NCBI GenBank assembly: GCA_028533045.1
Contig: JAQQAP010000019.1
Location: 1-64,000, forward strand
DNA length: 64,000 nt
Source of the DNA: Spirochaetales bacterium
GTDB taxonomy: Bacteria > Spirochaetota > Spirochaetia > DSM-2461
Direction: 5' to 3'
Below are positions 50,145-55,754 of this stretch, in pieces (positions within the stretch are counted from its first letter, which is position 1; each line of letters begins with the position of its first letter). The notes beneath the pieces were generated by a model. The model worked only from the letters and a program-made list of their open reading frames with translations, was not told the origin of the DNA and made no database searches. The position numbers were made by a program, and so were the translations under genes.

Positions 50145-50630
50145 ATGAAATGTAAGAAAAAATGGCTGACCGTCCTACTATTGCTTGTTTTCGTCTCTGC
50201 GGGACTCACGGCCATAGATATTGATTATCACACCGGCGTAGGGATTTCCATACCCTATGTTGAATCACAAGCTGTTTTCGCTTTTCCCTCCCTATACGGG
50301 GGTCTGGGAGCAAACCTTACCCCAAAATTAGCCCTGGGCATTGAGTATGAAGTATTCGGGATGTACCTGATGGGGTACGGATTCTTCGCCCACCTTCCCA
50401 AGGCCTATCTTAAATTCGACATGGCCCCTAGTTTTACCTTAACGGGAGTTGGGGGAGTCTTCTTTCCCACGGTCTTTTCTCCCGATGATTCGGAAACAAT
50501 CACAGAAGCAAACAGGGGATTTGTCGGAGCGAGAGCCACTCTGTTCTTCCTGTACGGAGAATACCTATTCCTTATTGACGATGAGGAGCCGGTCGGCTTG
50601 CTTTCTTTGGGCGCGGCGATAAAACGTTAG
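50145..50630 (+). CDS. Small exported beta-rich protein, possible outer-membrane barrel
   Basis: The 161-residue product has a signal peptide (cleaved near residue 22, LTA-ID) and alternating hydrophobic/aromatic strands (YHTGVGISIPYVESQAVFAFPSLYGGLGANLTPKLALGIEYEVFGMYL), typical of small outer-membrane beta barrels, though it has no family I recognise. The ATG at 50145 follows TTAGGAG. It is convergent with, and overlaps by four bases, the second CotH gene. Confidence 0.65.
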   Translation: MKCKKKWLTVLLLLVFVSAGLTAIDIDYHTGVGISIPYVESQAVFAFPSLYGGLGANLTPKLALGIEYEVFGMYLMGYGFFAHLPKAYLKFDMAPSFTLTGVGGVFFPTVFSPDDSETITEANRGFVGARATLFFLYGEYLFLIDDEEPVGLLSLGAAIKR

Positions 50631-51895
50631 TCGGAGACATAGCTTAGAGCCAGGCTGTGTACTTCGCTTATCCATTCCTTTATGTACGCCACTTCCTCTT
50701 CGGGAGTGGTGTAATCATCCCGGTCCCACTGGTCCATATACTTATCTTTCCATTCGGACCAATCCCTGTTGGCGGCGTCCTCTATCTCTTCCCAGATAGC
50801 ATCTATCTCGGCCAAAAGATCATCAATATCCCAGTTACCCCCATCGGCCAACAGGGTCGCATAAACCGCATTTTGTTCTTCCGAAAAGGAAGAAAGAGCC
50901 ACAAGCCGTTCTGAAATAGCATTTTCCGTAGTGTAGTAACTCTTGAAAAGGGCGGGCTCCCGATTTGTCTCCCCATCCTGTCCCAAACTCTCGTTAAAAT
51001 CCCAGGGGATATAATACCAGGGGCCGTTCGGGTCATTGTAATGATAGGCGTTCTTTGCCATGGCATCACCCGCATCGATGAGAGTCGTAAAAAACCACCA
51101 GCCGTAATAGCTGTCCAGACTAGCGGTGCTCTCAAAACCGCTTTCCGAATCTTCCAACTCAGAATCGCTGCTATCATTGATAAAATAGATAAAATCTATC
51201 AGGTCGTCATAGGCTCCTTCGGTCCCCATCTCCGGGTAACCGGATTTTTTTTCAAAGCCTGTATAGAGCTCATCGTGAATGTAAAAGTTGGCATCATGGG
51301 TAAGGGCCTTAAACAGATTTCCTCCGGTCGTCAGACCGTCAGCTAAAGGATTTACCTCACCGGAGGCACAGCGTTCAAGATAGTTCTCATCTATCGATTC
51401 AATAACCGTATACATCCCTTCGTACTCGCCATTTGTATAAACCACGGCACTGTCCGTTTGAACCACCGGGCTTTGATAGGTTCCGTCACCCCCGTCATGC
51501 ATGAGGGCCCACATTTTTTGGGCAATCCGGTTTCGTAAGTGAGAATTGTCGTCAAAGTCCGCAAGAAGGAGTATTTTCTCTCTATTATTAAAGCCTGAAT
51601 CCCCCAAAGAGGAATCGGAGAAGAGATCGTCCTCGGAGAAACGCAGGGTATAGCTCTTTTTAGGATAATAGGCCGTACTGGCCCCCCGGATTTTGCCCTC
51701 CCCCTCATATTCATGTCCTTTGTAAATTATTGTTACCGGAGAATAATAATCCTTGCTGACCGGTTTGGGATGAATATAGAAAATGGGCAAGCCCGACTCT
51801 TCCTGTTCCGTATAGGGGTTAACCGAATCGTCGTCCATAATAAAGGAGCAGCCAAATAGGGTTACAAGAATGGCTAAAAGCAAGATCTTTTTCAT
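50627..51895 (-). CDS. CotH-kinase-family lipoprotein (copy 2)
   Basis: The 422-residue protein has a lipoprotein signal (LFGC, Cys16) and the CotH kinase domain: GKIRGASTAYYPKKSYTLRFSEDD (nucleotide-binding Lys), DFDDNSHLRNRIAQKMWALM, YTNGEYEGMYTVIESIDENYLERC, and WYYIPWDFNESLGQ with the catalytic Asp. In Bacillus CotH phosphorylates spore-coat proteins; here the lipid anchor places it on the periplasmic or outer surface. It starts one base after the upstream CotH gene and is a tandem duplicate of it. It is last in the VTC operon. Confidence 0.88.
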   Translation of the reverse strand: MKKILLLAILVTLFGCSFIMDDDSVNPYTEQEESGLPIFYIHPKPVSKDYYSPVTIIYKGHEYEGEGKIRGASTAYYPKKSYTLRFSEDDLFSDSSLGDSGFNNREKILLLADFDDNSHLRNRIAQKMWALMHDGGDGTYQSPVVQTDSAVVYTNGEYEGMYTVIESIDENYLERCASGEVNPLADGLTTGGNLFKALTHDANFYIHDELYTGFEKKSGYPEMGTEGAYDDLIDFIYFINDSSDSELEDSESGFESTASLDSYYGWWFFTTLIDAGDAMAKNAYHYNDPNGPWYYIPWDFNESLGQDGETNREPALFKSYYTTENAISERLVALSSFSEEQNAVYATLLADGGNWDIDDLLAEIDAIWEEIEDAANRDWSEWKDKYMDQWDRDDYTTPEEEVAYIKEWISEVHSLALSYVSD

Positions 51896-51896
51896 A

Positions 51897-53168
51897 CTAC
51901 TCCGTAAAATAGGTTTGAGCCTGACTGTGGACCTCTTCTATCCACTCCTTGATATACTCAACCTCTTCCTGGGGTGTATTATAATTGTCCCGATTATCCC
52001 ATTCGTCGATAAAGGTATCGCCCCACTCAACCCAGTCATCATTGGCCGCATCTTCTATCTCTGCCCAGATCTCATCTACTTCGGCAAGCAGTGTATCCAA
52101 ATCCCAATTACCACCGTCGGCCAGTAAATCAGTATAAAGAGTGCTATACTCCTCTTCAAAGGTAGATAGTTCTACAATGCGATTAGCGATGCCATTACTG
52201 GATACGTACTCATCGCTGAATTCCGCATCGAGAAGCCCCGTATTGGCACTCTGGCCAAAGCTGGCATTAAAATCCCAGGGAAAATAGTACCAAAGTCCGT
52301 CCGATTCATAATAATGATAGGTATTCTTTGCCATCGAGTCGGTGGCCCGCAGAAAGGTCGTAAAAAACCACCAGCCATAATAACTATCCAGACTGGCCCG
52401 GGATTCAAAACCGCTTTCCGAATCGGTCAATTCGGAATCGCTGCTTTCATTTATATAATAAATGAAGTCGATTAAATCATCATAGGCACCTTCAACGCCC
52501 ATTTCGGGGTAACCGGATTTCTTCTCGAAGCCCGCCTCCATTTCATCACTAATGTAAAAATCAGCATCATGATCAACAGATTTGAAAAGGTCCCCTCCCG
52601 CAGACAGCCCGGAGGACAGAGGATTTACCTCACCTGAAGCACAGCGAGTAAGGTAGTTCTCATCAACCGATTCAATTATGGTATAAAGCCCCTCATAATC
52701 TCCATTCAGATAAACAACCGCACTGTCGGTCTGAATAACAGGGCTCTTATACGTCCCGTCACCCTCATCCTGCAGCATAGCCCACATATTCTGGGCAAGA
52801 CGGTTCCTCAAATGGGAATTATCATCAAAATCGGCAAGAAGCAGGATCTTGCTTCTATCACTAAAGCCTGCGTTTCCCAGGGTGGAATCATTAAAAAGGT
52901 CATCATCGGAAAAGCGAATAGTATATCCCTTTTTGGGTTTATAGGCAGAAGCATCCCCCCGGATCTTTCCCTCCGCCTCATATTCGTGCCCCCGGTAAAT
53001 TACCGTGACAGGCGTATAGAAGTCCTTGCTCACAGGCTTAGGATGAATATAGAAAACGGGCAAACCTGCCTCTTCCTGGTCCGCATAGGGATTTACCGAG
53101 TCGTCATCCAGAAGAAAAGAGCAGCCCGATATAATAAGGGCGAATAGAAGAAGTACTATCTTTCTCAT
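51897..53168 (-). CDS. CotH-kinase-family lipoprotein (copy 1)
   Basis: The 423-residue lipoprotein (LIISGC, Cys17) carries the same CotH kinase motifs as the next gene, nearly residue for residue (GKIRGDASAYKPKKGYTIRF, DFDDNSHLRNRLAQNMWAML, LNGDYEGLYTIIESVDENYL, WYYFPWDFNASFG). The two differ most in surface loops, so they may act on different targets. The start ATG at 53168 overlaps the porin stop (ATGA), a longer TTG frame being rejected. Extracellular protein kinase or phosphate-transfer activity is inferred from the family. Confidence 0.88.
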   Translation of the reverse strand: MRKIVLLLFALIISGCSFLLDDDSVNPYADQEEAGLPVFYIHPKPVSKDFYTPVTVIYRGHEYEAEGKIRGDASAYKPKKGYTIRFSDDDLFNDSTLGNAGFSDRSKILLLADFDDNSHLRNRLAQNMWAMLQDEGDGTYKSPVIQTDSAVVYLNGDYEGLYTIIESVDENYLTRCASGEVNPLSSGLSAGGDLFKSVDHDADFYISDEMEAGFEKKSGYPEMGVEGAYDDLIDFIYYINESSDSELTDSESGFESRASLDSYYGWWFFTTFLRATDSMAKNTYHYYESDGLWYYFPWDFNASFGQSANTGLLDAEFSDEYVSSNGIANRIVELSTFEEEYSTLYTDLLADGGNWDLDTLLAEVDEIWAEIEDAANDDWVEWGDTFIDEWDNRDNYNTPQEEVEYIKEWIEEVHSQAQTYFTE

Positions 53169-54163
53169 AAAATAACCACGCAATTTACAGACAGCTGAGT
53201 ATCGTAAAACTTATAGTTATTCAGTGTAGGATAGGAGTAGATATATTCAGAATGAAGCTCTGATCGGATCTGGAGCTTATCGTCAATAAGATAGGCATTA
53301 AATCCAAGACCGGGAATAATAATGTCATTTTCCCCATCCTCGTCAATATCCTCATTAAAATAATCAAAATAAATATAGGGTTCTATCCGCTTATGTCTAA
53401 AGGAGATGCAGCTATAAAGGGAGTTGTTCCAGTAATAGTTATAGTAACGCTGTTCCATCAGCTCCATAAAGATTGTCAGGCGGTTACGGGAGGAAAATTT
53501 ATGGTCCCATTTAACCCCGACTCCATGGGCAAAGGTCTCCGCCGTACTACCGGAAATCTCATAAGCAACTTCCCAATCCTCATAATCCCATTTGATCGTT
53601 CCGGCGGCTCGTATATGGCCCGAATCATTTTCGTAGGAATCATCTGAGGAGGTGAAATTATAGAGCCCCGCCTTATAGGAGAGGGTCTTCCAGATTTCCT
53701 TCCCCAAAAGGGTAAAGCCCAACGCCCGGCCTGGAGCAATAAGATCGCTTCCCTGGGAATGATAGAGCTGTGGACGTTCTGTGGAAGACATCTCGTACTC
53801 CATTCCAAAGGGAAGTTTGGCCTGCCCTACTCTGTAACGAAGAAGATCGGATTGGTTATACTGTATATAGGCATTCTTAAGAACCGCCCCTTCATCCTCC
53901 TCTGAAGAATTCAACTCGGAAAGATCCAGGGACAAATTGAATTCCAGATCCTCCTCATAGGTACCACTCATCTTTATATCCAAATCGGTTAAAGTAAAGC
54001 CTCCCCGCCCGGGGAAATCGGTGGCCTCATAGGTCAGGGATGTACCCAAAACCAATTCCTGGTCAAACTCAATGTGCTTTCCCGATTCGATTTCAAACGC
54101 GCCCAAGGGAAAAAGCATAAAAAGACATATCAATATTAGGGGTATTTTTTTTAAATTTTGCAT
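53165..54163 (-). CDS. OprP/OprO-like outer-membrane porin
   Basis: The 332-residue product has a signal peptide (GAF-EIESG near residue 23), an amphipathic beta-strand pattern throughout and segments typical of phosphate-selective porin O/P proteins (LKNAYIQYNQSDLLRYRVGQAKLPFGMEYEMSSTERPQLY, AGTIKWDYEDWEVAYEISGS). It would form a barrel in the outer membrane, possibly for phosphate or polyphosphate. It is third in the operon: 17 bases after DUF4956 and overlapping the CotH gene, so functional association with both is likely. Confidence 0.8.
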   Translation of the reverse strand: MQNLKKIPLILICLFMLFPLGAFEIESGKHIEFDQELVLGTSLTYEATDFPGRGGFTLTDLDIKMSGTYEEDLEFNLSLDLSELNSSEEDEGAVLKNAYIQYNQSDLLRYRVGQAKLPFGMEYEMSSTERPQLYHSQGSDLIAPGRALGFTLLGKEIWKTLSYKAGLYNFTSSDDSYENDSGHIRAAGTIKWDYEDWEVAYEISGSTAETFAHGVGVKWDHKFSSRNRLTIFMELMEQRYYNYYWNNSLYSCISFRHKRIEPYIYFDYFNEDIDEDGENDIIIPGLGFNAYLIDDKLQIRSELHSEYIYSYPTLNNYKFYDTQLSVNCVVIL

Positions 54164-54180
54164 TACTTACAACGCCTCTT

Positions 54181-54807
54181 TTAATTAAAAGGATTATCAC
54201 CCTTATAGAAAGCCTTAATCTTAAAGGCATCCTTGAGATAATCGATACTGGTAACTTCCGTAGAGAGAATATTCAGCCCGGTTCTCTCTTTGAGTTCCTT
54301 AATAAGGTCATCCTGCCTCTCCTTATGAACCAGCTGAATATCTTCCATATCGATAGTCAGCGATTCAACCTTGGTCATGGCATTTCTCATCTCCAGCAAA
54401 AAGAGGGAGATAAAGATGAACACATTCGTAAAGATAATGAAATAAATCGACAAATGAATGGTTACCAATGAGTTCACAACGGCAAGGACGATGAAAAGAA
54501 AAAGATAGGTCATATTTCTTATGCTAATCTCATCGGTCCTGTACTGAAAAATGGAAAAGACCGCAAAAAGGCCAAAGGCAAAACCGGTTTGAATATTGGC
54601 GCTAACCAATAAACTGGTTATGAAAAAGATAAGAATATTCACTACATAAAAGGACTGAATAAACTTATGCTTACCATTAAAGCGATAATAAATATGATGA
54701 ATAATAAGATAAAGAAAGCCCAGATTTAGGGCCAAACGAAAAAAAAGGGAATAAAGTGTTTCCCTATCGATAGTTGCTAAGCTGAATATTCCATGAATGT
54801 AGGACAT
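54181..54807 (-). CDS. DUF4956 inner-membrane protein
   Basis: The 208-residue protein has four closely spaced membrane helices (residues about 17-125), then a cytosolic helical/mixed C-terminal domain (TKVESLTIDMEDIQLVHKERQDDLIKELKERTGLNILSTEVTSIDYLKDAFKIKAFY), the layout of DUF4956. Such genes are known next to VTC polyphosphate polymerase genes in other bacteria, as here; the start overlaps the VTC gene by 31 bases, with AGGAGGT as ribosome site. It may be the membrane part of a polyphosphate synthase/translocase. Function not established. Confidence 0.85.
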   Translation of the reverse strand: MSYIHGIFSLATIDRETLYSLFFRLALNLGFLYLIIHHIYYRFNGKHKFIQSFYVVNILIFFITSLLVSANIQTGFAFGLFAVFSIFQYRTDEISIRNMTYLFLFIVLAVVNSLVTIHLSIYFIIFTNVFIFISLFLLEMRNAMTKVESLTIDMEDIQLVHKERQDDLIKELKERTGLNILSTEVTSIDYLKDAFKIKAFYKGDNPFN

Positions 54808-55592
54808 GGTTGTACCTCCTCAACCCTACTTATATAATTAATTTTTTCTAATTTGCGGATTAATGGCTTAAAACGGTTAATCTTGACATCTTCCCGGGTA
54901 CTGGCGATTCCCACGCAATATTTGCTAATTCCGGTTTGCATAATTTTATGGGTTCGGAGAGCATTCTCCATAATGGACTTCTCGCTTCCGTGATTTCTTT
55001 TTATTTCCATAATAAAAAGATTCCCGAGAATATCGTTCTTGGACTCATGATTGAATCGCAAGTTAAAATCCAGAGTAATGCGCTCGGTAAAATCCTTGTT
55101 TACAAAGGTAATTCTTCGATAGGAAACATCCAGCATGGGTACGAGCTGATCGGAGAAAGCTTCGAGACTTTTATCAAGGTTAATGAAATCCAGAAACTCC
55201 TTATCCAAAGGGGCATCCTTAGCTTCCCGGTTGATTCTCTTTTTTACGGTGGTACCCTTATTGTTTTTGAACTTTATCTCATCAAAGACAAGACCGGAGT
55301 CCCTATATTCCCGGGTTCGGATTTTGTAGCGATTGGTACGGCCATTCTGATGGGCTGTGTAAAGTTTGAAGTCAGGCGTATCCATATAGGTGGTCTCATA
55401 ACTGAAATTCCGAATACCCTGATGGGAGAGCACATAGTAATCATCACTGACAGACTGAAGAAGGAGCACAAGCTGGTCTAGAGAACCGACATACTTCGTA
55501 TCGGTTCTGGAAAGAAGGGATACCCGGGATAAATCTTTTAGGGAGACCGGCTCCATCCGTTCAATTCTATTGTTTATTACTGTCTTTAACAT
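54777..55592 (-). CDS. VTC-domain polyphosphate polymerase
   Basis: The 271-residue protein matches the VTC4 catalytic domain, a tunnel fold that makes polyphosphate from ATP: SRTDTKYVGS (basic start of the tunnel), YMDTPDFKLYTAH, NRYKIRTREYRDSGLVFDEIKFKNNKG (R-x-R and E-x-K), and late ITLDFNLRF and LFIMEIKRNHG with the metal-binding Glu. It is soluble itself and presumably docks on the DUF4956 protein encoded by the overlapping next gene. GAGGAGGGAG precedes the ATG. First gene of the VTC/DUF4956/porin/CotH/CotH operon. Confidence 0.88.
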   Translation of the reverse strand: MLKTVINNRIERMEPVSLKDLSRVSLLSRTDTKYVGSLDQLVLLLQSVSDDYYVLSHQGIRNFSYETTYMDTPDFKLYTAHQNGRTNRYKIRTREYRDSGLVFDEIKFKNNKGTTVKKRINREAKDAPLDKEFLDFINLDKSLEAFSDQLVPMLDVSYRRITFVNKDFTERITLDFNLRFNHESKNDILGNLFIMEIKRNHGSEKSIMENALRTHKIMQTGISKYCVGIASTREDVKINRFKPLIRKLEKINYISRVEEVQPCPTFMEYSA

Positions 55593-55715
55593 AGGGCAAC
55601 TCCCTCCTCTTTTTTACTGATTGTTTCTAAAGCAAGTTAAGAGTAAGAGAATTACACATATTTGAGAATGAATGGAAATCTAACTGAAGATTAACGAAAT
55701 ATAAACAACGGCAAC

Positions 55716-55736
55716 CCCCGCCCCAGCGGGACGGGG
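55716..55736 (-). terminator. Hairpin after ettA
   Basis: On the minus strand CCCCGTCCC and GGGGCGGGG pair over nine bases (one G-U) around GCT, 19 bases past the ettA stop. A weak T-rich stretch follows. Confidence 0.5.
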
Positions 55737-55754
55737 ATCCCTATGAAGGGAGAA

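Follow-up and report, generated by a model that had tools for sequence, protein, structure and literature searches.

A probable spirochaete operon joining VTC and DUF4956 genes to a predicted outer-membrane barrel and tandem CotH kinases

The window analysed here is a stretch of 64,000 nucleotides from contig JAQQAP010000019.1 of a Spirochaetales bacterium, whose 4.2-Mb assembly is 97% complete with 7% contamination. It carries five adjacent minus-strand genes, encoding a VTC-domain protein, a DUF4956 membrane protein, a Porin_O_P-like barrel and two CotH-kinase lipoproteins, and their overlaps and conservation indicate that they form an operon. Comparison with related loci suggests that the conserved part, in addition to VTC and DUF4956, is a predicted outer-membrane barrel with surface CotH kinases, rather than a phosphate-specific porin.

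The order of transcription is VTC (54777..55592; 271 aa; Pfam VTC), predicted to be a polyphosphate polymerase of the cytosol with a triphosphate-tunnel fold, DUF4956 (54181..54807; 208 aa; Pfam DUF4956), the Porin_O_P-like protein with a signal sequence (53165..54163; 332 aa; Pfam PF07396), the first CotH lipoprotein (51897..53168; 423 aa; Pfam CotH) and its tandem duplicate (50627..51895; 422 aa; Pfam CotH). VTC and DUF4956 overlap by 31 bases, a 17-base gap separates DUF4956 from the porin, the end of the porin gene overlaps the start of the first CotH gene by 4 bases (ATGA), and 1 base lies between the CotH genes. These positions and all four junctions reproduce those of the first-pass annotation, and its assignments to VTC, DUF4956 and twice to CotH are each supported by Pfam; its view of one coupled operon reaching from the cytoplasm to the outer membrane is supported as well, with VTC and both CotH proteins keeping their catalytic residues. 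For the first CotH gene the ORF list gives an upstream TTG as start codon, but the ATG at 53168 is the most likely one. An intrinsic-terminator-like hairpin on the minus strand (55713..55739; 12-pair stem, 8 G-C pairs; consensus match only) closes the ABC gene upstream and separates it from the operon, which therefore probably has its own promoter, although a single pattern match is weak evidence. No NCBIfam model matched any of the five proteins. On the plus strand, convergent to the operon, a gene at 50145-50630 encodes a secreted barrel-like protein of 161 aa that has no Pfam match; the stop of this gene and that of CotH share 4 bases.

The VTC protein matched PF09359 (E=1.3e-30, 107 bits, cut-off 23), and the profile of its family aligned with yeast Vtc4 (3g3q, E=9e-15). 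Residues K33, K90, R92, R94, R171, D175, E196, K198 and K224 are invariant in an alignment of 42 sequences, and K33, R92, R94, E196 and K224 correspond to the tunnel catalytic positions (Lys, Arg-x-Arg, Glu, Lys) of Vtc4. Judged from its sequence, the enzyme would produce polyphosphate; a literature search, with subscription papers outside its scope, found no report of a bacterial VTC-domain protein that makes polyphosphate. PPK1 is also encoded in the genome, so VTC is not required for bulk polyphosphate storage and a storage-only role is unlikely.

The DUF4956 protein matched PF16316 (E=4.7e-40, 137 bits). Its AlphaFold2 model (pLDDT 83.7) contains helices at residues 15-44, 50-69, 75-91, 96-113 and 121-145 and an alpha/beta C-terminal domain, pointing to about four transmembrane helices and an ACT-like C-terminal domain. 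The published description of SIR_1592 fits this layout of membrane helices and ACT domain (PMC12345266). A fold search against the PDB returned no significant match, the yeast VTC channel included, and matches to ACT domains were weak. By analogy, DUF4956 may export polyphosphate.

The third protein matched PF07396 (E=3.9e-8, 33.4 bits, cut-off 20.9) over profile positions 26-149 of 370 (about 124), and has 13 amphipathic strands against 9.0 in shuffled sequences (p=0.02). Together with the position of its gene, the Pfam match and this excess of strands predict an outer-membrane barrel. The AlphaFold2 model, from three sequences, gave no confident fold (pLDDT 28.5), and searches against PDB sequences returned chance-level matches only. 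By profile comparison the family showed weak similarity to the DUF2490 barrels (probability 81%, E=1e-5) and none to a 434-aa barrel described below. The initial description as a phosphate-type porin was not upheld: the PF07396 match is partial, the whole protein is net acidic (-27), and other barrel families occupy the slot elsewhere.

Both CotH copies matched PF08757 (E=4e-45, 155 bits each); they share 69% protein identity and start with lipobox-like signals, ISGC/SF in the first copy and LFGC/SF in the second. The first aligned with B. subtilis CotH (5jd9, E=1e-13), the D-N-D kinase residues included. D277, N282, W298 and D299 are present in the second, and the first shows the same D-N-D pattern; D277, W298 and D299 are near-invariant. 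In the CotH active site, D-N-D are the equivalents of PKA D166/N171/D184 (PMC12189002). Retention of both adenine-binding aromatics was considered and dropped, as only the Trp position aligns clearly (5jd9 alignment and PMC12189002 numbering). Catalytic residues are thus present in both copies, as expected of the two complete kinases first annotated, and both are predicted to be active protein kinases. Since the nucleotide-kinase and adenine-stacking residues are kept, the donor is probably a nucleotide, and polyphosphate and CotH stay unlinked; polyphosphate as the direct donor of CotH is a minority hypothesis. A T9SS type A sorting domain was present above the NCBIfam cut-off in all nine Fibrobacterota CotH proteins tested (9/9), which places their kinase domains outside the outer membrane. 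The lipid anchor of the window proteins would serve the same end.

Two further genomes of the family carry the gene set: locus L074 has VTC-DUF4956-porin-CotH in identical order with one CotH gene, and locus L078 has VTC-DUF4956-(LTD protein)-porin-CotH, with one extra gene; homologues of the window porin fill the same slot in both. The first-pass annotation had staked its reading on the porin and CotH genes accompanying VTC and DUF4956 in close relatives, and these two loci carry both. The gene inserted between DUF4956 and the porin of L078 (2160-2669) encodes a lamin-tail-domain lipoprotein. Occurrence across the family is patchy, with the gene set absent from two genomes of the same genus. 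VTC is rare in spirochaetes (21 above the cut-off in 296 genomes). Of 24 spirochaete VTC loci, 23 have DUF4956 no more than 3 kb away and 16 have CotH no more than 4 kb away, and several VTC-DUF4956 pairs are without CotH. A Porin_O_P match adjoining VTC was found, among the VTC-bearing genomes searched, in the genome of the window only; the remaining spirochaete VTC genomes mostly have VTC-DUF4956-CotH. What looked like a CotH-VTC fusion in L043 proved to be an ORF-calling overlap and was rejected.

The genome of the window contains a paralogous operon on contig C22, composed of CotH, VTC, DUF4956 and the 434-aa barrel-like protein. This type is also found in the relatives at L076 and L077, and one relative (G313) carries both types (L074 and L077), an observation noted against 7% assembly contamination. 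Sequence comparison thus indicates that the recurring pair is an outer-membrane barrel and a surface CotH kinase, usually joined to VTC-DUF4956.

Three further CotH loci of the same genome were recorded. On contig C8 (L036, 6099-8734), genes for a 333-aa barrel-like protein and CotH face one for a 152-aa DUF4956 protein without the ACT-like C-terminal domain. On contig C7 (L037, 6015-9231), overlapping genes form an operon that has neither VTC nor DUF4956, with a CotH lipoprotein encoded between two barrel-like secreted proteins that are homologous to each other; this is a minimal unit of barrel and CotH. On contig C42 (L035, 7068-8417), the CotH gene with the highest score in the genome (248 bits) is convergent to a polyketide/fatty-acid-synthase-like operon and lies beside a RelE-like gene.

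A scan of genome contigs located the arrangement Cthe_2159-VTC-DUF4956-Porin_O_P-CotH-CotH-CotH in a member of Candidatus Fibrimonadaceae (L155); because the gene order recurs in this second phylum, it is far beyond chance. With the L155 porin as query, homologues were detected in 25 of 168 Fibrobacterota genomes, and in most neighbourhoods the porin begins within a few bases of DUF4956. Because the twenty porin-type loci were picked via the porin, its presence in 20/20 reflects selection, and it is the other genes that test the arrangement: DUF4956 was present in 20/20, VTC in 19/20, Cthe_2159 in 18/20 and CotH in 17/20, absences falling mostly at contig ends. VTC and DUF4956 seemed to be missing from L193 and L198 and were recovered by a six-frame profile search, and in L200 and L201 VTC-DUF4956 is divergent from porin-CotH. 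One to four CotH copies follow 3' of the porin, which makes tandem duplication as in the window a recurrent habit. The porin and duplicated kinases, first regarded as new, are therefore not unique to this genome, being regular in Fibrobacterota operons. In a VTC+DUF4956 tree the porin-type loci fall close together, with the 434-aa-barrel loci nearby, though long branches make this grouping weak.

Among Bacteroidota loci selected for similarity to the window DUF4956, VTC adjoins DUF4956 in 66 of 74. The gene 3' of DUF4956 very often encodes a secreted protein of 210-240 aa; all 39 such proteins, picked by position and length, matched DUF2490, many also matching OMP beta-barrel or porin models. 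CotH then follows in a subset, and at 16 loci barrel and CotH are both within five genes. At these 39 loci, the slot of the porin is held by a DUF2490 barrel. At eight Bacteroidota loci (L083, L088, L090, L110, L125, L150, L152 and L156), a secreted protein of 130-160 aa ending in KVYEY or similar is encoded directly upstream of VTC.

We tentatively favour, with rather less than even confidence, the reading of the five genes as one trans-envelope module, in which VTC and DUF4956 make and pass polyphosphate, the barrel sits in the outer membrane and CotH phosphorylates surface proteins. On the cytosolic side of the inner membrane, VTC would use ATP to build the phosphate polymer, and DUF4956, with four helices and an ACT-like regulatory domain, would be its membrane partner, passing or gating the product as in the yeast VTC complex. 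In yeast, VTC couples synthesis with translocation (PMC9911596). The beta-barrel would be the outer-membrane part of the module, possibly allowing passage, and the lipid-anchored CotH proteins would be Ser/Thr-type kinases with envelope or surface proteins as substrates; together they may assemble or alter a phosphorylated surface layer or an adhesive matrix. Against the module stand the CotH and barrel genes without VTC or DUF4956 on contig C7 and the VTC-DUF4956 pairs without CotH.

The strongest rival, which overlaps with the trans-envelope reading and is itself unlikely though worth weighing, gives the module an accessory and regulatory role in a system for adhesion or exopolysaccharide. 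DUF4956, through its ACT domain, and VTC would sense or adjust the phosphate or energy state, CotH would phosphorylate matrix or secretion proteins, the barrel would export or anchor the polymer, and polyphosphate would be at most a signal. VTC, DUF4956 and CotH do adjoin pel genes in Gram-positive bacteria (PMC7112168), and deletion of the DUF4956 or CotH gene of S. intermedius alters Pel amount and aggregation (PMC12345266). Carbohydrate-binding Cthe_2159 proteins precede VTC in those 18 Fibrobacterota loci and in L053, and dTDP-rhamnose-type genes, read from the sequence, lie 3' of the operon in L074. However, PelG is absent from the genome of the window, polysaccharide genes are absent from the operon and its paralogue, and the cassette is found in many genomes without a common polysaccharide locus.

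A phosphate-acquisition operon, in which phosphate taken in through an outer-membrane phosphate porin would be stored by VTC as polyphosphate and the CotH proteins would be bystanders, is improbable. The Porin_O_P match speaks for it, as does the storage of phosphate by VTC in yeast, but the acidic charge of the porin, its replacement by other barrel families, the presence of PPK1 and an operon devoid of phosphate transporter or regulator genes all count against it, and CotH adjoins the barrel in all but a few of the porin-type loci uncut by contig ends. Equally little credence is given to an extension of the trans-envelope reading for diderms, in which the polyphosphate extruded by VTC and DUF4956 reaches the surface through the barrel and directly or indirectly powers CotH or is its substrate. 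ATP is scarce outside the cell, and this extension, if true, would solve the phosphate-donor problem of extracellular phosphorylation. Synthesis of another product by the VTC-fold (triphosphate-tunnel/CYTH-like) protein, such as short-chain phosphate or a nucleotide product used by DUF4956, is very doubtful, since there is no variation at the K, R-x-R, E and K positions that resemble those of Vtc4, even if related tunnel enzymes vary in activity (PMC8233210, PMC4641920) and the literature search found no bacterial VTC activity report.

Bacterial VTC-type polymerases, DUF4956 proteins and non-spore CotH kinases are common and their function is blank. Returning to the trans-envelope module, a conserved operon that adds a barrel and surface-sorted kinases fixes their compartments and offers a testable unit, relevant to possible polyphosphate export in bacteria and to kinase action outside the cell. 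The cassette is also far wider than the Pel loci of its first description.

Gram-positive pel loci are already known to combine VTC, DUF4956 and CotH, and in B. thetaiotaomicron DUF4956 has been recorded beside DUF2490 (PMC10434189). The literature search, with the same exclusion of subscription papers, found neither a conserved outer-membrane barrel in the cassette nor the cassette in a PelG-less genome. The Gram-positive pel cassette (PMC7112168; S. intermedius SIR_1592-1594, PMC12345266) resembles the window operon in its contiguous genes for CotH, polyphosphate polymerase and DUF4956; there CotH is secreted, DUF4956 has four transmembrane segments and an ACT domain, and the polymerase is of VTC type. 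Unlike it, the window operon includes a predicted outer-membrane barrel and has two lipid-anchored CotH copies, and no pel gene was seen beside it. The S. intermedius VTC deletion mutant still aggregated, with no changed Pel level reported, and the same 2025 paper states that its authors did not find CotH/VTC/DUF4956 synteny except at Pel loci (PMC12345266); by their predicted gene content, the loci described here contradict this as counter-examples.

The iron-responsive pair BT3498-99 of B. thetaiotaomicron likewise places DUF4956 beside a beta-barrel gene, but that barrel is DUF2490 and not Porin_O_P, and the available part of PMC10434189 gives the pair as a table entry without functional proposal. 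The yeast VTC complex (Vtc4 catalytic domain and transmembrane channel) shares the catalytic fold and residues and the setting of a polymerase beside a multi-helix membrane partner. The window system differs in having no SPX domain, in a membrane part that is a separate, unrelated-looking protein, and in its place in a bacterial envelope instead of a vacuole. The window's organism belongs to a group not known to form spores. With the spore-coat CotH kinases of Bacillus its CotH proteins share the kinase fold family, the D-N-D residues and the adenine-stacking Trp position; unlike them, they are lipid-anchored by prediction, arranged in tandem, and tied to a barrel and VTC.
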